Assembly (NCBI GenBank): GCA_028284935.1
Contig: JANQQQ010000017.1
Span: 1 to 64,000, forward strand
DNA: 64,000 nucleotides
DNA from: Croceivirga sp.
GTDB taxonomy: Bacteria > Bacteroidota > Bacteroidia > Flavobacteriales > Flavobacteriaceae
Direction of reading: 5' to 3'
Shown here one piece after another: positions 37,056-45,447 of the stretch. The notes below the pieces were generated by a model that saw only the letters and a program-made list of their open reading frames with translations, was not told the DNA's origin and ran no database searches. Each line of letters opens with the position of its first letter. Position 1 is the stretch's first letter. A program made the position numbers and the translations under genes.

Positions 37056-37808
37056 CTACGAATCTGACGTAGAAGATTGTGAGGCAACGGCAGCTCCATA
37101 AACAACCAAACCGAAACCAATTTTATTGATGGCGTCACCAATATTATAAATAACGTCCATATTCAACCCTTCAAAGATTCCATCGTACCAACCCGTGGTT
37201 CCTGCCATGTATCCAATGGGATAAATGGCCCAACCTACCAGCACGAACCAACAGAGCGTTTTGTGGGCTTTTAGTACAGAACCTCCAGCAGATTCCGCCA
37301 ATTTTTTGGCATTACCAAACCATATTTCATAAACAATGTAGAAGTAGGCTATACCGGAAATAAGACCCCAAAGTGCAGGTCCTGAACCCGTTGTGTAGAC
37401 CGCTTCCCCGAAATATCCTGTAACTAACATAACGACCGAAGCAAAAATTAATTTCCACATCAATGACTTTTGGGCACCCGCTACCTTAAGGATGAGATAG
37501 AATTCCACACACATTAAAGGCACAGTAAGTGTCCAGTCCACATATCTAAAGAATGTAGGGGATTCTCCCACACCAGCCCAATAGTCGCGCATGTACCAAT
37601 AGTGTACGGCAGCAATAAAGGTAATCAATCCTGAAACCAGAATAGAGGTTTTCCACTTTCTATCAAAGCTGTTCATGGACAAAAAGAAGAAAGCAGAGGC
37701 GGCCATCATCGCCATGCACCCTACGAAAAAGGTGAATCCAACGTAGTCATCGTTGGCAATCTTGCTAACATCGGCTAACAAGGGTAAGCTTAACAATAAA
37801 GATTTCAT
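37056..37808 (-). CDS. proteorhodopsin, green-absorbing proton-pump type
   Basis: A 250-aa seven-helix microbial rhodopsin. The retinal Schiff-base lysine is K229 (NIGDAINKIGFG). Helix C reads RYVDWTLTVPLMCVEFYLI: D91 (acceptor), T95 and E102 (donor) form the Asp-Thr-Glu set of outward proton pumps, not the Asn-Asp-Gln set of sodium pumps. H69 is the acceptor-linked histidine. The spectral-tuning site is Met99, the flavobacterial version of the green-absorbing form. The first ~15 residues look like a signal peptide. The protein should generate proton-motive force in light with retinal supplied by the divergent blh gene. Confidence 0.96.
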   Translation of the reverse strand: MKSLLLSLPLLADVSKIANDDYVGFTFFVGCMAMMAASAFFFLSMNSFDRKWKTSILVSGLITFIAAVHYWYMRDYWAGVGESPTFFRYVDWTLTVPLMCVEFYLILKVAGAQKSLMWKLIFASVVMLVTGYFGEAVYTTGSGPALWGLISGIAYFYIVYEIWFGNAKKLAESAGGSVLKAHKTLCWFVLVGWAIYPIGYMAGTTGWYDGIFEGLNMDVIYNIGDAINKIGFGLVVYGAAVASQSSTSDS

Positions 37809-37838
37809 ATATATAAGAGTTAATTAATTTTGTTAAAC

Positions 37839-37846
37839 CAAATGTA
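37839..37846 (-). promoter_or_regulatory. -7 box of the rhodopsin gene
   Basis: On the minus strand this reads TACATTTG, a perfect TAnnTTTG match, 31 bases before the ATG at 37808. No TTTG lies at the -33 position. The whole 118-base rhodopsin-blh spacer is extremely A/T-rich. Confidence 0.55.
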
Positions 37847-37926
37847 AAAAAAGTTAAACAATAAAATGATAAAAAATGTTTAAAATTTTTACTATATATT
37901 TAAACAAAAGTTGAAAAACTAAGAAT

Positions 37927-38796
37927 TTGAAAAATAGTATTATTGTTTTGACCTTTTTTGGATTATGGCTCTCCACGCAATTGGGGGCTACAGCTCAAGA
38001 TTATCTGGCCTATACCTTGATTCTAACGTTCGGGGTATTGCATGGCGCAAATGACATTACTCTAATAACCTCATTAACAAAAAGAAAGGATTCCAATGGG
38101 AAGTTGTTGTTTATCTATTTGGGGGCCATTGTTTTAGTAACCTTTTTATTTGTGGTATCCAAAGGAATTGCCTTAATATTCTTTATTTTGATTAGTGCAT
38201 ATCACTTCGGTGAACAACATTTCAGCCATCATTTAACCAAGGAGAGCCGCATCTCCCGCCCCCTTTTCATAACATATGGCGCTACAATATTGTTTATGAT
38301 ATTCTTTATAAAATTAAACGAAGTGTTAAATGTGATCAAGGACGTTTCTGGTTGGATGCTTGACGAAAGTTTTATTGTCGGTGCTCTTATTGTCGTTTCA
38401 ATTGGGACGGTGGTATGCTGTTTTAGGCTTATTAAAGATGGGATATTAAAGATTAATCCCATTAAGGAACTGTTTTATCTGATTGTGTTGGGAATAACTT
38501 TTGCCAATGCTTCATTGGTATGGGGATTTGCGATTTATTTTATCTTTTGGCACAGTTTGCCTTCAATGAGGGACCAATTGAATTTTCTCTACGGTCGAGC
38601 CAATCGAAGCAATTTTGTGAGCTATCTGAAAACCTCTTCCTTGTATTGGCTGATATCTATTTTGGGTTTGGGTGTCCTATACTGGTTGTTGAGGGATAGT
38701 GTGGATTATTTCATTACTGTGATTTTATATGTGCTTGCAGCTATAACCTTTCCCCATGTGTTGGTGATGTCCAAAGTGGAGGCCATTAAAAAGTAA
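37927..38796 (+). CDS. blh: beta-carotene 15,15'-dioxygenase, Brp/Blh family
   Basis: Blh (289 aa) cleaves beta-carotene into two retinals, the chromophore of rhodopsin. About eight membrane helices and the conserved histidines are visible: H39 (VLHGANDI), H93, H98, H101 and H102 (AYHFGEQHFSHH), H209 (IFWHSLPSMRD) and H277 (FPHVLVM). No ATG precedes this region in frame, so the start is a TTG at 37927, giving MKNSIIVLTFFGLW. It is divergent from the rhodopsin gene, and its last 11 bases overlap the end of the convergent receptor gene. No carotenoid-synthesis genes are in the window. Confidence 0.93.
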   Translation: MKNSIIVLTFFGLWLSTQLGATAQDYLAYTLILTFGVLHGANDITLITSLTKRKDSNGKLLFIYLGAIVLVTFLFVVSKGIALIFFILISAYHFGEQHFSHHLTKESRISRPLFITYGATILFMIFFIKLNEVLNVIKDVSGWMLDESFIVGALIVVSIGTVVCCFRLIKDGILKINPIKELFYLIVLGITFANASLVWGFAIYFIFWHSLPSMRDQLNFLYGRANRSNFVSYLKTSSLYWLISILGLGVLYWLLRDSVDYFITVILYVLAAITFPHVLVMSKVEAIKK

Positions 38797-41356
38797 CTCT
38801 GAAATTGAAATTAGGCGTGAGTCCTAGAGAAGTATTGTCCACTCGCTCAATCTCATTTTCATCGGAAACACGGAAGTACCTATTTAATATATTGGTCCGG
38901 TCGGTAAGATTTAACAAGGAAACGCCGGCTTTGGCCTTTACCCTTGGACTCAAGCTGAATCCATAGGTCGCTGATGCGTCCATTCTAAAATATTCGGGCA
39001 AACGACTGCTATTGGGAGCTTTAAAATTGATTCGGGCTGGAAAGAACGTCGTGTCCAGCGAACTGTCTTCCACGGGTTCTGTATAAGGCCTTCCCGTCCT
39101 GTAATTTAGGCCCATACCCAATTTAAGATTTCCAATCGTGTAGGTCCCTGCAAGGGTAAGGGTGTGTCGCACATCCAAATTGTTGGGAAAAACTGATGGT
39201 ACTATGCTATCATAGGTATAATAGTTTTTATTGTACGTATAGCTCATCCAAGCACTATAGTTTTCTCCCTGTTGATTGATCAAGAATTCCACACCTTTTA
39301 CTTCGTAACTTCCTATTAAATCATTCCTTCCCAAATCCCCGTTGAATTGGTTTTCGTTTTGAAAACCTTGCGTTCTGGTACTCACGCCATCCACATTTTT
39401 GTAAAACGCCTCGATACCTAAATAGAATTGATTTTTAGCATAATTGACTCCAATAGAACCTTGTTTGCTTTTGGTCAGGGGTAATTCTTCTTCATTGGAT
39501 AGGGTCCAACGCCTTTTTTCTACCCCTAGAAAGTTCTGTTCCAAATCAATAACCTGATTGGTACTTTGACTCTTAAATTCCCCAAGAATCTGTCCCCTTA
39601 AGTAATTGGCCAACCTAAAATTAAGATTGATTCTAGGTTCAAAAAGCCACTGTGAAAAAGTATCAATGTTTTCAATATAATTGGCCCTCAGCCCTCCATG
39701 TGCAATAAAACTATCGTCCAAAGCCCTATATTGAATCTCGGTAAAGGGAGCTTGGATTCTGATGACACTTTTTTCATTAAGGTTAAAATTAGGTTCGGTT
39801 ACCCTTGCCTCGTTGATTATCCCGGTTTCTATGTACTGATATCCATTGATCCAATTTAGCGAATTGGACAATTTATATGAAGAGGTAATTTTGGCTTGGC
39901 GCTCCTCCACCGTATTTTCCTGAAATAACCGCTGTACCTGATTGGGAAAAAAACTTTGGGCGTCCAAATCATATTTGGAAAAATAGATATTGGCATGGGT
40001 AGAAAAACGATTGGTCCAATCCGCATACCATTGCAAACCTGCCGAAAGATTGGTTTGGTCCAAAAAGCTTCTGGATGTTTCGTTCGTGTCCGTATCGCTT
40101 TCCAAAAAATCAAGATCGTTGTCAATGGCAATAAAGCTTAGACGCACTCTGTGATAGTCGTTGATATCGTAAAGCACTTTCCCAGAGAAATCATAGAAAA
40201 AAAAGGTCTCGTCCTGTTCCAGATTTTCGTTTATCCTCTGGTTTTGTTCATTTCTAATTTCGGTGTCCTGAAAAGCCCTATCCGTAAAACTGCCATAAAC
40301 GGGAGTATCCAAAAAATCGGTAGTCGATCGTCTTGCGGAAAACTGAAACGCCAATTTCTCATTCACCGGAAGCTGTCCAAAAACATCCCCACTGATGAAA
40401 TTAAAGCCAGCGCCACCAAAGAATTGCTCTTCAATAGTGTTCTTGGTCTCCATACTGATGACCCCACTTACCCCATCTCCGTATTGGGCCGGAGTACCAT
40501 TTTTATAGATGGACACTTTTTCAGTTAGATAAGGATTAAAGGCGGAAATCAATCCAAAAAAGTGACCGGATTGATACATTTTAATCCCATTCCATAAGAT
40601 AAGATTCTGGTCGTTGGTCCCCCCACGTATATTAATGTCCGAAACCGTCTCATCAATACTTTTGATACCGGGAAGCGCCTGTACCCCAAAAAGTACATCG
40701 GGTTCCGCCAGTCCTGGTAAAAGGCCTAGCTCTCCCGTGTTCAAGGTGATGCTCCCATCGGTTTCCCTAATGATTCCCTTGGTCAAGAACTCATAAACCA
40801 CTACCTCGTTCAGCGCTTCCCGACGTTCCGCCAAAAGGATTTTTGGACATTCATCTTCCAAAATCAAATCGGAAACGGGCACTATTTTAGTAGTATATCC
40901 AAGATAACGAATCTGTAAGGAAGCCGTTCGTTCCACGTTTTCTAATTTAAAATTGCCTTCTACGTCAGTTATCAGGGCTTTTTCAGTTCCTAAAACTTCA
41001 ACAGTGGCCCCAGGGACAGTATTCTTGGCAAAATTGTCCAGTACCCGGGCACAAATAGCTACAAATTTGGATCTACTCAAGGCATAGTACCTTTCGTTGA
41101 GCTGTTTGATTTCGATTCCGGTCTGTTGGGCAAGACTATTTAGGATTTCCTGAAGCTGATTGGAGGAAGGAACTTCAATCTCAATACCTTTGATATCGGT
41201 ATCCACATAGGAGAACTTGACCTCAAACCTTCGTTCCAATTGTGAAATGAAAGTGGGAAGCTCAAGCGTTGGTTTGTCTTGAGCCATAAGGTGATTGGAT
41301 AGTGCAATGAGCACCATCATCAGTATACTACAAACGCTACGGAGTGTTCCCTGCAT
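38786..41356 (-). CDS. TonB-dependent outer-membrane receptor with STN signalling domain
   Basis: The 856-aa protein has a signal peptide (about 1-25), an STN domain (about 27-95, with FEVKFSYVDTDIKGIEIEV), a CarboxypepD_reg-like domain (about 100-160), then a plug (about 205-305, with INIRGGTNDQNLILWNGIKM) and a beta-barrel ending in FNFRVTF. An STN domain couples ligand binding to a FecR-type anti-sigma factor, and fecR lies directly upstream, overlapping by 20 bases. The ligand is unknown; there is no susD partner. Confidence 0.92.
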   Translation of the reverse strand: MQGTLRSVCSILMMVLIALSNHLMAQDKPTLELPTFISQLERRFEVKFSYVDTDIKGIEIEVPSSNQLQEILNSLAQQTGIEIKQLNERYYALSRSKFVAICARVLDNFAKNTVPGATVEVLGTEKALITDVEGNFKLENVERTASLQIRYLGYTTKIVPVSDLILEDECPKILLAERREALNEVVVYEFLTKGIIRETDGSITLNTGELGLLPGLAEPDVLFGVQALPGIKSIDETVSDINIRGGTNDQNLILWNGIKMYQSGHFFGLISAFNPYLTEKVSIYKNGTPAQYGDGVSGVISMETKNTIEEQFFGGAGFNFISGDVFGQLPVNEKLAFQFSARRSTTDFLDTPVYGSFTDRAFQDTEIRNEQNQRINENLEQDETFFFYDFSGKVLYDINDYHRVRLSFIAIDNDLDFLESDTDTNETSRSFLDQTNLSAGLQWYADWTNRFSTHANIYFSKYDLDAQSFFPNQVQRLFQENTVEERQAKITSSYKLSNSLNWINGYQYIETGIINEARVTEPNFNLNEKSVIRIQAPFTEIQYRALDDSFIAHGGLRANYIENIDTFSQWLFEPRINLNFRLANYLRGQILGEFKSQSTNQVIDLEQNFLGVEKRRWTLSNEEELPLTKSKQGSIGVNYAKNQFYLGIEAFYKNVDGVSTRTQGFQNENQFNGDLGRNDLIGSYEVKGVEFLINQQGENYSAWMSYTYNKNYYTYDSIVPSVFPNNLDVRHTLTLAGTYTIGNLKLGMGLNYRTGRPYTEPVEDSSLDTTFFPARINFKAPNSSRLPEYFRMDASATYGFSLSPRVKAKAGVSLLNLTDRTNILNRYFRVSDENEIERVDNTSLGLTPNFNFRVTF

Positions 41357-42248
41357 AGAAGAGTACGTTGTCCGTCCCCAATTTATAACGAATTTGGGAA
41401 GGAGTACTAATACTTTCTAACGCTAGATTTATATCGGTGTTGTTAAAAGTACCGGTAAAAAGTTGTTCGGTATCGATATTTTGGATATTAACCTCCATAT
41501 TGAATTGACGCTCAAATTCAGCCAAAACATATTTAAGGGGTATGCTTTTAAAGGAACTTTCGTTCTGTGTCCAAGAGGGTACAGGGGCGACAATGCCTTT
41601 CGTTTGTGTGATTTCCCCATTAATGACTATAAAGGAATTCCCAGCGGGTAGTTTCTTTGTGGTACCATTGTACATGACACTCACCAAACCTTCATAACAG
41701 GTTACCTCAAAAAAACCCTTTCTGCTCTCCACATTGAACTGGGTGCCGAGAACAGTAACTTTACCGGCGGCTGTGGAAACCGTAAATCGCTTCCCTTTGG
41801 CCACTTTAAAATAGGCTTCCCCATCCAGTACCAAATTACGGTTGTCCTCCCAATTTGTTTCATTGAAGGAAAGCTCAGAACCGGCATTCAATAGAACTTC
41901 GGAAGCATCCGGGAGTATAATTTCTGTTTGTTGGGCAAATTCAGTGCTATAGCGTTCATCCAAGGAGTTCAAGTAAAAATAGGAACCAGCAAGAAGCACA
42001 GCAATAACAGCGGCTATGCGCAAGAAGGACTTGAAGGGATGTAAAGGAAGCACCTTGGGTTCTTTCTCCATGTTAGCATTCCTAAAGGAGGTCCATGCCT
42101 GATCCACATCAAATTCAGGAGCCTTCATTCCCTTTGATGTATCAACGATTCTCTGATATGAAGCATATTCGGCCGACTTCTTAAACTCGGCCAACTCTTC
42201 TTCCGAGAGTTCATTGTTCAACCATTTTGCCAAGTAATTTTCTTGCAT
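41337..42248 (-). CDS. FecR-family anti-sigma factor
   Basis: The 303-aa protein has a short cytosolic start (MQENYLAKWLNNELSEEEL) that would hold the ECF sigma factor, one membrane helix (about residues 75-93) and a periplasmic FecR domain. The domain shows LPDASEVLLNAGSELSFNE, LDGEAYFKVAKGKRFTVSTAAGKVTVLGTQFNV, and a C-terminal STN-contacting segment (PLKYVLAEFERQFNMEVNI). It follows the sigma gene after a 123-base spacer that carries its own promoter-like element, so it may be transcribed separately from it. Confidence 0.93.
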   Translation of the reverse strand: MQENYLAKWLNNELSEEELAEFKKSAEYASYQRIVDTSKGMKAPEFDVDQAWTSFRNANMEKEPKVLPLHPFKSFLRIAAVIAVLLAGSYFYLNSLDERYSTEFAQQTEIILPDASEVLLNAGSELSFNETNWEDNRNLVLDGEAYFKVAKGKRFTVSTAAGKVTVLGTQFNVESRKGFFEVTCYEGLVSVMYNGTTKKLPAGNSFIVINGEITQTKGIVAPVPSWTQNESSFKSIPLKYVLAEFERQFNMEVNIQNIDTEQLFTGTFNNTDINLALESISTPSQIRYKLGTDNVLFYAGNTP

Positions 42249-42261
42249 GATTTCTATGCTT

Positions 42262-42298
42262 TACGGTCTTATAACAATTAAGTTTAAAAAAACCCTAC
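42262..42298 (-). promoter_or_regulatory. candidate ECF-sigma promoter of the fecR-receptor operon
   Basis: Read on the minus strand from 42298, the element starts GTAGGGTTTTTTT and ends TTGTTATAAGACCGTA, 13 bases before the fecR ATG. It aligns without gaps to 42927-42963 in front of the Asp-rich lipoprotein, with 28 of 37 identical positions. It differs from the TTTG/TAnnTTTG consensus. A -35 GTAGGGT and a -10 with CGTA are inferred, not proven. Confidence 0.65.
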
Positions 42299-42310
42299 TT
42301 TATTTTAAGA

Positions 42311-42370
42311 TCAAGAATCAAATCCCTAAACTTCAAGTCTAGATTTGAAATTTGTGATTTGGAATTTATG
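42311..42370. repeat. facing heptamer-period arrays in the sigma-fecR spacer
   Basis: 42311-42338 splits into TCAAGAA, TCAAATC, CCTAAAC and TTCAAGT. 42343-42370 splits into ATTTGAA, ATTTGTG, ATTTGGA and ATTTATG. Both have an exact 7-base period, and the second set resembles the reverse complement of the first. TCAAATC (42318-42324) and GATTTGA (42342-42348) are a perfect 7-bp inverted pair. The layout matches the rpsM-rpsK spacer in principle but with different units. Confidence 0.65.
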
Positions 42371-42371
42371 G

Positions 42372-42872
42372 TCATATTCCATCAATCTGCTCCCTCAAGG
42401 TTTTCAATGCCAAATGCATCCGTTTTTCAATGGCCTTTACACTTACACCTTCCATCTCTGCAATCTCGCTATATTTTTTTCCATCGATTCTATTTAACAA
42501 AAAAGTGGTTCGTTGATTTTCGGGAAGTGCGTCAAGGGCATCGTCCAATTTTTTTTGAAACTGTTTTTCCTCCAAAACATACTCGGGCGATTCCTGATTG
42601 ATTGAATTGGAATGTTGATCAGCATATTTCAATCGCACTTTTTCAGCCTTGATCACGTTAAGATAAAGATTGTTTGCCACGGTGTACAAATAGGACCTCG
42701 CTTTTTCCGGGGCTACTTTTGCACAATTCTCCCAGAGCTTTACAAAGGCCTCCTGCACGGCATCATTTGCTTTTTCCTCATTGCCAAACTTATAATAGAT
42801 ATAGTTAAAAACCGTTTTAGAATTGTCCTTAAATATGGAACTGAAGATGTGTTCTTCGCAAACGTTGCCCAT
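42372..42872 (-). CDS. ECF-type RNA polymerase sigma factor (FecI-like)
   Basis: The 166-aa protein has region 2 (FNYIYYKFGNEEKANDAVQEAFVKLWENC, about residues 22-50) and region 4 (LPENQRTTFLLNRIDGKKYSEIAEMEGVSVKAIEKRMHLALKTLRE, about 115-160). It lacks regions 1 and 3, as ECF sigma factors do. With the downstream fecR and STN receptor it forms a cell-surface signalling triad. It should be held by FecR until the receptor binds its ligand. A TATCTTTG box (42896-42903, minus strand) suggests housekeeping transcription of the sigma gene. Confidence 0.93.
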   Translation of the reverse strand: MGNVCEEHIFSSIFKDNSKTVFNYIYYKFGNEEKANDAVQEAFVKLWENCAKVAPEKARSYLYTVANNLYLNVIKAEKVRLKYADQHSNSINQESPEYVLEEKQFQKKLDDALDALPENQRTTFLLNRIDGKKYSEIAEMEGVSVKAIEKRMHLALKTLREQIDGI

Positions 42873-42895
42873 GCATTGGTTTTTACAAGGTTTCC

Positions 42896-42903
42896 CAAAG
42901 ATA
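42896..42903 (-). promoter_or_regulatory. -7 box of the ECF sigma gene
   Basis: The minus strand reads TATCTTTG, a full TAnnTTTG match, 23 bases before the ATG at 42872. No -33 TTTG is at the right distance. Confidence 0.45.
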
Positions 42904-42926
42904 TTTTAAAAAATGTGAAAATTGAG

Positions 42927-42963
42927 GTAGGGTATTTTTACAAATGGTTGTTTTATGATCGTA
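42927..42963 (+). promoter_or_regulatory. candidate ECF-sigma promoter of the Asp-rich lipoprotein
   Basis: The element starts GTAGGGTATTTTT, contains TTGTT, and ends GATCGTA, 26 bases before the ATG at 42990. It matches the fecR-proximal element in 28 of 37 positions, with the first seven bases and the TTGTT and CGTA blocks conserved in place. It lies between the divergent sigma gene and the lipoprotein and points toward the lipoprotein. Confidence 0.65.
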
Positions 42964-42989: not shown

Positions 42990-44828
42990 ATGAAAAAGTT
43001 GATAACTAATGTAATGTATGCAGGCTTTGTTGCCGTAGCCTTACTATTTAATTCGTGTCAGGAAGAGTTTGAAGAAGTGGGTAGTGATGCCCAAGAAACG
43101 CTTCAAACGGATTCTGCCACTGCTGAGTTAATCGTTAATACGGCCTCCAATGATGGTTCTTTTGATAACATTGTTGACGAAGCAAGTTGCATTGCCGTTC
43201 AATTCCCTTATACCGTAGAGGTTGCTGGGATTCAGATTACCATTGATAGTATTGAAGACTTAGAATTGATTGAGGAAATTTTTGACGAGTTTGATGATGA
43301 TGAAGATGTTCTTGAAATTATTTTCCCTATTACCATTACCCTTGCCGATTTTACTGAAGTAGTTATCGAAAGCAAGGAAGCGCTTCGCGAATTGGCTGCT
43401 GAATGTCGTGAAGGTGGGGATGATGATGACATAGAATGTATCGATTTTGTATATCCCATTACTTTGTTCACATTTGATATTGATGGACAACAAGCTGGAA
43501 GTCTGACCATCAACAGTGATCGAGAGTTGCGTAGGTTCTTCAAAGATCGTGAGGAAGGTGAATTGATCAGTATTGAGTACCCTGTGACCATGAAAAAATT
43601 TGACGGAACGGAGATTCAGGTAAACAGCAATGCTGAATTGGCAAGGGTTTTGGAAGCTGCCGAAGATGAGTGTGATGAGGATGATGACGATGATTACAAT
43701 GATGATGACTTTGACGAGGAGCGTTTTGAGGAATTTTTGACGGAATGTCCTTGGAAAGTATATGATATCCGACGTTTTGGAATGGCACAAACCGATCAGT
43801 ATAGGGATTTTGTACTCGACTTTGACGATGATGGTGAAGTTGAATTAATAGGCCCTATGGGCAATAGCACAACAGGTCAGTGGTCATTTGAATTTACTGA
43901 AAATGGTCCAACGGTGGAAATGGACTTTGGAATGATGACCGATTTCAATCTTGTGTGGGTTGTATATGAGATTGGCGAGGGCAAAATTAAGTTCTACTCT
44001 GATAACGATAATAAAATCATTTTAAAAAGACGTTGCGAAGATGGTGATGATGATGACGACGATGACAATGATGACGGAGATGACGACGGAGACGATGGCG
44101 ATGATAATGGCATTATCAGTATTGAGACCTTGATGAACACCCTTATGGAGTGTGAGTGGATCATCCGTGACTTAGAGTTACAAGGAGAGGATATTGATAG
44201 ATTGTTGGGCTATGAGTTCATCTTTAGCGAAGACGGAGTAGTTACTTTAGGTGATGGCATTACCACCTTTGAAGGAACCTGGGAAGTGGGTGCGAATGCC
44301 GATGGAATAAGAAGCCTTACCATTGAGATCATGATGGAAACTGCCGTAAACTTTGAGTGGCCAGTGGTTGATATTGACGGAGAGAGTGTTGTAAAAACAT
44401 CCCGTATAGTATTGAAGGATGAAGCTGTCGACTATGAAATGGTACTACAAAAATCCTGTGAGGATAGTGAGGATGGTGATGTTGGTGAGATTAGAAACAC
44501 TTTGCTAGGAGGTCTATGGAACATTACCCTTTATGATGATGAAGGGGAAGACGAGACCGAGGATTTTGCAGGAATGGACTTCAGTTTCTCCAATTTTAAT
44601 CAAGTGGAAGTTTCCATTAATGATGACCCTCAGGTCGCCGGTGTTTGGAGGGCCCTTAGGGACACAGGAGGAAACCTTCAGGTATATATCAACTTGGGTG
44701 ATGATGAACCATTTGATGAATTGACCGAGGCTTGGTATCTCATGGAGTTATCCGCCGACAGAATAGAATTGGTTTACGAAGACGAAGACGTAAACTTTAA
44801 AACATTAGTGTTCGAGAAGAAACAGTAA
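42990..44828 (+). CDS. large Asp-rich repeat lipoprotein, candidate ECF-sigma target
   Basis: A 612-aa acidic lipoprotein with a signal peptide and lipobox Cys23 (LLFNSC). Residues about 67-228 hold four similar units of 40-45 aa, each with a FPITI-like strand, a polar turn and an ESKEALRELAAEC-like helix. Residues about 250-350, 380-490 and 498-612 hold three 100-115-aa beta-rich units of the W..YEF.F..DG..TGTW type, separated by Asp runs (231-240, 352-373). The Asp linkers suggest divalent cation binding, which is inference. I recognise no named family. The frame is open further upstream, but the Met at 42990 gives the lipoprotein signal. The gene is divergent from the ECF sigma gene. Confidence 0.85.
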   Translation: MKKLITNVMYAGFVAVALLFNSCQEEFEEVGSDAQETLQTDSATAELIVNTASNDGSFDNIVDEASCIAVQFPYTVEVAGIQITIDSIEDLELIEEIFDEFDDDEDVLEIIFPITITLADFTEVVIESKEALRELAAECREGGDDDDIECIDFVYPITLFTFDIDGQQAGSLTINSDRELRRFFKDREEGELISIEYPVTMKKFDGTEIQVNSNAELARVLEAAEDECDEDDDDDYNDDDFDEERFEEFLTECPWKVYDIRRFGMAQTDQYRDFVLDFDDDGEVELIGPMGNSTTGQWSFEFTENGPTVEMDFGMMTDFNLVWVVYEIGEGKIKFYSDNDNKIILKRRCEDGDDDDDDDNDDGDDDGDDGDDNGIISIETLMNTLMECEWIIRDLELQGEDIDRLLGYEFIFSEDGVVTLGDGITTFEGTWEVGANADGIRSLTIEIMMETAVNFEWPVVDIDGESVVKTSRIVLKDEAVDYEMVLQKSCEDSEDGDVGEIRNTLLGGLWNITLYDDEGEDETEDFAGMDFSFSNFNQVEVSINDDPQVAGVWRALRDTGGNLQVYINLGDDEPFDELTEAWYLMELSADRIELVYEDEDVNFKTLVFEKKQ

Positions 44829-44852: not shown

Positions 44853-44887
44853 AAAAGGACAGTTTGCTCCAAAGCTGTCCTTTTTTT
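44853..44887 (+). terminator. terminator of the Asp-rich lipoprotein gene
   Basis: AAAAGGACAG (44853-44862) pairs with CTGTCCTTTT (44875-44884) across a 12-base loop, and the T-run continues to 44887. Confidence 0.85.

Positions 44888-44961: not shown

Positions 44962-45447
<486 letters not shown>

Follow-up and report, generated by a model that had tools for sequence, protein, structure and literature searches.

A predicted FecI-like sigma factor element shared by a fecR-receptor unit, a divergent acidic lipoprotein gene, an sRNA candidate and the gene of a small membrane protein in Flavobacteriaceae

Comparison of a 64,000-nucleotide stretch of a Croceivirga genome (hereafter, the window) with related genomes points to a cell-surface signalling system of the FecIRA type, in which a single ECF sigma factor very probably reads four units: a fecR-receptor unit, a divergently oriented lipoprotein gene, a small RNA (sRNA) and a gene for a 55-aa membrane protein. 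Co-regulation of these units by the sigma factor of one clade (clade A) is well supported by the conservation and distribution of a shared promoter-like element. Mapping of ECF sigma regulons in Flavobacteriaceae has been sparse, and here comparison alone led to a precisely delimited putative promoter, a predicted four-unit regulon, and an sRNA candidate outside the Rfam gathering level, along with two protein families that have no match over the Pfam or NCBIfam cut-offs.

The genes of the locus are arranged around the sigma factor gene, which lies on the minus strand (166 aa, 42372-42872) and whose product matches the TIGR02985 family at 126.5 bits against a cut-off of 126.4. The gene adjoining it on the same strand encodes a FecR-type regulator of 303 aa (41337-42248), composed of an N-terminal part, a single hydrophobic segment (recognised by eye), and FecR and FecR_C domains (PF04773 and PF16344 in a profile search). 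The TonB-dependent receptor gene follows, also on the minus strand (856 aa, 38786-41356), and its product carries CarbopepD_reg_2 and Plug domains behind an N-terminal region that we name STN-like, by resemblance and by a match of residues 33-88 to FecR_C that stays below threshold (21.5 bits, cut-off 24.4); no Pfam STN model matched the receptor. A similar N-terminus was seen by eye in 12 compared receptors spanning clades A to C, and the suggestion that the clade B receptor lacks the signalling region was rejected on the same inspection of N-termini, which showed that these receptors retain a similar region and lack the CarbopepD_reg part instead. The receptor family as a whole is present in 207 of 299 family genomes at E<=1e-80. 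On the plus strand, divergent from the sigma gene, lies the gene of an acidic lipoprotein of 612 aa (42990-44828), with a lipobox cysteine (C23) beginning the sequence CQEEFEE, a DGSxDNIxD motif, four repeats, an Asp-rich segment CDEDDDDDYNDDD and three lipocalin-like domains. The identities of these four genes had been proposed in an earlier note on this DNA, made from the sequence without searches, and the searches bore them out.

A 37-base element precedes fecR at 42262-42298 on the minus strand (core GTAGGGT-N14-TTGTTATA at 42298-42270, conserved A37 at 42262), and another precedes the lipoprotein gene at 42927-42963 on the plus strand (core GTAGGGT-N14-TTGTTTTA at 42927-42955, conserved A37 at 42963). 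The ungapped match between them at 28 of 37 positions (42298-42262, minus, against 42927-42963, plus) is exactly as the earlier note had claimed. Dinucleotide shuffles of both upstream regions produced at best 26 matches, with 0 of 1,000 reaching 28, and the next-best places in the window scored 22 for the fecR element and 23 for the lipoprotein element; compared with its own opposite strand in the window, the fecR element scored 24. A pattern of the shared positions, allowing up to three mismatches, was found at these two places only in the 4.23-Mb genome. When this genome was searched on its own, the motif in loose form (up to two mismatches) gave 44 matches, compared with 70 for the reversed pattern, and so showed no enrichment; only the exact form stood out, with four matches against zero, one of the four within a coding frame; the weight of the argument therefore rests on cross-genome comparison. 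A search with GTAGGGT-N26-CGTA, a reduced form of the kind that had been put forward for searching, likewise showed no enrichment (36 matches with up to one mismatch, against 85 for the reversed pattern). The remaining three fecR genes of the genome had no motif in the stretches fetched around them (about 1.5 kb on each side, shorter for L127), and the element was accordingly rejected as a motif of every FecR system in the genome. Elsewhere in the genome, sites at G000:C13:402170 and G000:C36:240214 (L274 and L275) combine TTAGGGTTTTGGTCA-like and TTAGGATTTTTGGTCA-like sequences, respectively, with TTGTTATA at the same spacing; the former stands upstream of a lipoprotein gene that diverges from a different sigma-like gene, and is perhaps the promoter of a related sigma factor.

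Across the Flavobacteriaceae, the core of the element reads GTAGGGT-N14-TTGTTnTA. We scanned 250 bases upstream of each gene with the pattern NNAGG[GA]-N15-[TC]TGTT, counting distinct sequences only, and found it before fecR in 112/124 regions (about 49 bases from the start) and before the lipoprotein gene in 123/129 (about 60 bases from the start). Control upstream regions yielded 0/122 for the receptor gene, 1/116 for ffh and 0/114 for folD, the rhodopsin neighbours of the receptor gene gave 0/27 each, and the sigma gene itself had the pattern in 5/129 regions, in every case at least 179 nt away. While the pattern fixes the spacing, it leaves G1, T2 and T7 free, and these three letters are invariant in the matching clade A sequences (87/87 before fecR and 96/96 before the lipoprotein gene). 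Of the boxes that the earlier note regarded as kept in place, relatives retain GTAGGGT, the T-run and TTGTT, but CGTA was rejected as a conserved box, occupying positions 34-37 in just 17 of 235 elements; judged by conservation, the -10-like part is TTGTTnTA rather than CGTA. The A at position 37, conserved in clade A in 81/87 elements before fecR and 95/96 before the lipoprotein gene, may possibly be the transcription start (+1). One could suppose that the likeness of the two elements in the window stems from a recent local duplication or from the A/T-rich composition of promoters and has no function, as both elements are T-rich and lie within one short intergenic region. We regard this as extremely improbable, given that no shuffle matched the observed similarity, that the spacer is variable while both boxes are nearly invariant over many genera, and that the same element stands before unrelated genes elsewhere in the genome (see below). 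Position 27 differs between the two sites, being A in 76/87 elements before fecR and T in 85/96 before the lipoprotein gene, which is perhaps a conserved difference in promoter strength.

Downstream of the 612-aa lipoprotein gene, an inverted repeat (AAAAGGACAG/CTGTCCTTTT) with a T-run, read directly in the sequence at 44853-44884 on the plus strand, is a likely terminator and parts this gene from one of 161 aa. It was not among the sites returned by the terminator scan, which has a loop limit of 8 bases; the loop here has 12. The 161-aa gene (window 44962-45447), which also follows the large lipoprotein gene in a number of relatives, encodes an Asp-rich lipoprotein with weak META/Lipocalin_4 similarity and sits without an element behind the likely terminator. 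Considered as a further unit of the regulon, it was rejected and left out because the pattern occurred in 1/34 of its upstream regions.

The locus is old in the family. With the lipoprotein as query, relatives were detected in 204 of the 299 family genomes, and in a first set of 60 loci, picked among the matches listed and comprising mostly the best and some divergent ones, the sigma gene was divergent from the lipoprotein gene in all 60. The fecR and receptor genes follow the sigma gene in 59/60, including one locus (L043) in which fecR sits behind a 3.2-kb insertion; in the remaining locus (L059), an insertion places them at a distance of about 7.4 kb, such that their loss there and in L180 was only apparent. 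A second set of 80 loci drew on Croceivirga, Croceitalea, Allomuricauda, Flagellimonas, Maribacter, Arenibacter, Robiginitalea, Muriicola, Eudoraea, Zeaxanthinibacter, Cellulophaga, Yeosuana and others. The two sets share strains, and identical upstream sequences were dropped before counting. The divergent pair was present in 79/80 loci of the second set (the single miss being a contig end) and fecR in 74/80, the six loci without it being four short contigs or contig ends (L129, L145, L195 and L206), the insertion strain (L180) and L172. The last of these, from a Robiginitalea MAG, has the sigma gene and the lipoprotein gene with its element, and no fecR or orthologous receptor gene within the fetched 16 kb. 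Eight paralogous loci (L085, L087, L088 and L090-L094) have the same four-gene layout with no ffh alongside; they carry a TCAGGA variant of the element at 7/8 fecR sites and 7/8 lipoprotein sites, and several have a shorter lipoprotein.

Several observations tie the element to the sigma factor encoded beside it. The first six letters of the element vary with the clade of the adjacent sigma factor: clade A has GTAGGG, clade B mostly GTAGGA and the paralogous clade C TCAGGA, all at one spacing, which the search pattern fixed. Among 107 loci with distinct sigma sequences and an element detected at both sites, the two sites agree in these letters in 104. The GTAGGG and TCAGGA groups each map to a single clade of the sigma tree with support 100/99, in a tree thinned from 107 to 77 rows, with unsettled bootstrap and a long-branch warning that includes clade C rows. 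In the two lineages with insertions of about 3.2 kb and 7.4 kb between the sigma gene and fecR, the latter keeps its own element. The sigma gene has a housekeeping -7 box (TAnnTTTG) before it instead, read as TATCTTTG at 42896-42903 on the minus strand of the window: this box occurred upstream of the sigma gene in 104/129 distinct regions, against a shuffled expectation of 8, and upstream of fecR and the lipoprotein gene in 3/124 (expectation 10) and 13/129 (expectation 17), respectively. The predicted role of the element, as the mark of units that the adjacent FecI-like sigma factor reads, is strongly supported by its conservation before fecR and the lipoprotein gene but not before neighbouring genes, by clade co-variation, by the insertions and by the housekeeping box. 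The earlier note had placed the element before exactly the two units that this sigma factor would control; the link to the sigma factor stood, but the restriction to two units gave way with the sRNA candidate and the 55-aa gene described below.

The element might alternatively be read by one or more different ECF sigma factors, with the adjacent sigma gene there for another reason. Flavobacterial genomes contain several such factors, and the portions of PMC9723704 available to us suggest partially overlapping regulons for the seven of Flavobacterium psychrophilum; the same portions report a single ECF-type motif from a start-site study and leave open how the seven ECF factors share it. Another sigma factor with common specificity could exist, yet the variants of the element track the clade of the adjacent sigma factor, the additional element-bearing units are almost confined to genomes with a clade A sigma factor, and no element was present in the stretches fetched around this genome's other fecR genes. 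We consider a different reader improbable, and favour the adjacent factor.

Genomes with a clade A sigma factor were defined by a score of at least 253 bits (the next score being 218), which selected 47 of 299. The exact motif GTAGGGT-N14-TTGTTnTA matched 108 times in 32 such genomes, both known sites included, against three matches for the reversed motif. One recurrent match, GTAGGGTTCC-N-GCCCGTTCAGTTGTTATA (13 of the 108), was set aside as conserved coding sequence: its copy in our genome, the only one inspected, lies at G000:C13:130545 inside a 272-aa reading frame, presumably that of a DapD-like protein. Further motif sites occur in single genomes, for example at L242, L256 and L259.

Another recurrent context of the element has the layout of an sRNA gene, in which the element is followed by AAATTGCTATGAAAAAG, a variable part that frequently contains a hairpin, a block TTCATGTGTTTAGGTTGGTTTT, and a strong hairpin with a T-run. 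The copy in our genome lies outside the window, with the element at G000:C3:45009-45037 on the minus strand (L095); the predicted RNA of this copy has a folding z of -2.85, and its terminator was recovered by the scan. We built a covariance model from only the 3' half, leaving the promoter out, and at 50 bits or more (next score 45.6) it found the candidate in 41 of 299 genomes, namely 41/47 with a clade A sigma factor and 0/252 others (Fisher p 2e-44, a value that overstates independence because the co-occurrence follows phylogeny). When the 19 genomes from which the model was made were removed, the candidate remained in 22/28 genomes with a clade A sigma factor and 0/252 others, and the element stood upstream of it in all 22 of these non-source genomes when any of T, C and G was allowed at position 22 (with four cases called by eye), and in 16/22 when it was restricted to T or C. 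Given the absence of the sRNA at 50 bits outside clade A genomes, the clade B and clade C systems would work without this RNA. An Rfam search of nine sRNA and small-gene loci gave zero matches at the gathering score, and a permissive search of four loci returned isrJ alone, on L311, at 32.5 bits against a threshold of 37 (E 0.0079). Predicted duplex energies of the sRNA with the starts of the lipoprotein, fecR, receptor and ffh genes were no better than those of shuffles. With the leader of the sigma gene, there was a weak excess (mean z -0.76, 11/25 below -1), and the sigma gene was dropped as a target on counts of core 7-mers, which gave 19/105 for the sigma gene but also 19/97 for the unrelated folD control. 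In 11 of 20 compared sRNA loci, a gene that we take to be guaA-like starts no more than about 1.2 kb downstream of the element.

The fourth unit encodes a protein of 55 aa with one hydrophobic segment (MDVMKEILNKGPLGLLSFWSRSMVLLLFSAIVSTLLTMLVVLLIYGNEISIQFGY), located outside the window at G000:C35:141389-141553 on the minus strand and preceded by an element with one mismatch (element and gene together, G000:C35:141389-141637, minus strand, L103 and L292). A profile made from 11 of these proteins, themselves found through the motif, detected the protein in 40 of 299 genomes, comprising 38/47 with a clade A sigma factor and 2/252 others; excluding the 11 seed genomes, it was found in 27/36 with a clade A sigma factor. 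With T, C or G accepted at position 22, the element lies upstream of the gene in 34/38 of the clade A cases and 23/27 without the seeds, against 2/760 shuffles, failing the pattern in 4/38, and it was present in 0/2 of the genomes that have the protein without a clade A sigma factor. Under the stricter pattern (T or C), it was found in 25/29 of the 55-aa loci first collected and 14/18 non-seed loci. The leader of the gene contains ACATCC in 29/38 cases and the start region contains GGATGT in 36/38, and the start codon may therefore be folded away. Two of the 55-aa proteins, searched against Pfam and NCBIfam, had no match over the cut-offs.

The lipoprotein of the window had no Pfam or NCBIfam match at E values up to 1, and no SusD family appeared in the Pfam matches of 25 of its relatives. 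Behind the lipobox cysteine, counted over 130 distinct proteins, position +2 is Q in 119, +3 is E or D in 105, +4 is E in 125, +5 is F in 80 and +6 is E in 95. The sequence at this place in the window, CQEEFEE, is close to the SDDFE deduced as a lipoprotein export signal of Flavobacterium johnsoniae in the part of PMC5080379 consulted, and the lipoprotein is therefore likely to be surface-exposed. In 55 aligned sequences, the DGSxDNIxD motif is invariant, as are C228, E230, D231, D232, D238 and D240 of the Asp-rich linker. Structure prediction (mean pLDDT 80.5, pTM 0.44) gave four short strand-strand-helix repeats, modelled at moderate confidence, and three lipocalin-like domains C-terminal to the linker, the low pTM making the arrangement of the domains uncertain. 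Foldseek found no structural match for the model as a whole chain, the likeness to small lipocalin-like proteins being domain-wise only: the lipocalin-like barrel matched 4qrl (E 0.0094, TM by target 0.60) and 4zgf (E 0.0049, TM by target 0.49), both with probability 1.00, and a sequence profile also matched 4zgf (E 0.0011). In a class-wide search of 295 genomes, the N-terminal half was found in eight genomes of the family and two others, one of them weakly, and 24 more genomes matched the last domain only. We infer that the lipoprotein may capture or present the ligand of the receptor at the surface, an idea compatible with its surface-export-type N-terminus and lipocalin-like domains.

These features can be assembled into a predicted signalling pathway. 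The sigma factor would be made at a basal level from a housekeeping promoter, as suggested by the conserved TAnnTTTG box, and FecR, by analogy with its family, would hold or process it at the inner membrane. The STN-like N-terminal region of the receptor would, as in other members of the family, signal to FecR; once the receptor is engaged, free sigma factor would recognise GTAGGGT-N14-TTGTTnTA and raise the output of the fecR-receptor unit, the divergent surface lipoprotein, an sRNA of about 105-175 nt ending in an intrinsic terminator, and the 55-aa single-pass membrane protein. The sRNA might then rebalance other envelope mRNAs, and the small protein might act in the inner membrane.

Because the predicted regulon includes both an sRNA and a small membrane protein, envelope homeostasis is a serious rival to plain nutrient uptake. 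Under the same regulatory link, the lipoprotein could be a surface-exposed sensor or shield rather than a ligand-capturing partner, and the system an envelope-homeostasis response built on a FecIR chassis, in which the sRNA would reduce the levels of other outer-membrane proteins and the small protein would sit in the inner membrane. The Asp-rich, strictly conserved N-terminal part of the lipoprotein and its fixed locus resemble core physiology and not a variable uptake locus, and the combination of receptor, sRNA and small membrane protein resembles stress regulons such as that of sigma-E with its sRNAs; however, the receptor has a transporter-like plug domain, and the duplex tests of the sRNA gave no target above controls. 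We hold this reading to be possible, if somewhat doubtful, and retain ligand capture or presentation as the proposed role of the lipoprotein. More speculatively, the locus may belong to a core regulon of marine Flavobacteriaceae, an outer-membrane remodelling circuit that is more than a nutrient-uptake switch, in which the one sigma factor would link the TonB receptor and a new class of Asp-rich, repeat-built lipoprotein, as surface sensor, to a new sRNA and a new 55-aa protein; the small gene would be under a second control, at translation, since ACATCC in its leader can pair with GGATGT at the start codon.

We compared the proposed system with known ones. TbpA/TbpB likewise pairs a TonB receptor with a surface lipoprotein that has small beta-barrel domains, and TbpB chains ranked first by Foldseek E-value; homology to TbpB was rejected, as a TM-score of about 0.1 to 0.13 gives no structural membership in TbpB and the model does not show the bilobed handle-plus-barrel fold along its entire chain. 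TbpB was not among the sequence matches to solved structures. The sigma-E-dependent sRNAs of enterobacteria, RybB and MicA, resemble the sRNA candidate in having an ECF sigma promoter, a conserved single-stranded block and an intrinsic terminator, but the candidate has no gathering-level Rfam match. As in the E. coli FecI-FecR-FecA system, as far as the consulted part of PMC9249621 describes it, there is an ECF sigma factor, a FecR-type regulator, a TonB receptor with an N-terminal signalling or signalling-like region, and a sigma gene made, or here probably made, by the housekeeping sigma factor. In E. coli, however, fecIR forms one unit under the housekeeping sigma factor that is not autoregulated, and FecI reads the fecA promoter (same part of PMC9249621), whereas the promoter boundary here falls between the sigma gene and fecR, the lipoprotein gene, the sRNA candidate and the 55-aa gene carry the element, and there is no known substrate in place of ferric citrate. 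In the HasI-HasS-HasR system, the regulator gene hasS responds to HasI according to that part of PMC9249621, similar to what we propose for fecR; Has differs in receptor, ligand (heme) and gene layout, and no lipoprotein, sRNA or small-protein unit figures in its description there.

The PUS loci of F. johnsoniae include genes for FecR-like regulators and ECF sigma factors (excerpts of PMC8115612), and the locus shares with these SusC/SusD-type, ECF-sigma-linked loci of Bacteroidota the association of a sigma factor and a FecR-like regulator with outer-membrane uptake genes. Unlike in those loci, the lipoprotein has no SusD family match and the receptor no SusC model match, and the lipoprotein gene is single and divergent with a promoter of its own; a SusC/SusD pair was thus rejected by the Pfam and NCBIfam searches of both proteins. 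Among titles and abstract openings of the open-licence literature, we found no paper that names the lipoprotein, the sRNA candidate or the 55-aa protein. A receptor family common in Flavobacteriaceae gains a candidate surface partner, which raises the question of what marine bacteria sense with this receptor and points to a possible, undescribed route by which marine flavobacteria sense something outside the cell. On its other side, the receptor gene is adjoined by genes that we name rhodopsin-like and blh-like by resemblance only (window 37056-38796), and this neighbourhood is retained in a number of relatives.
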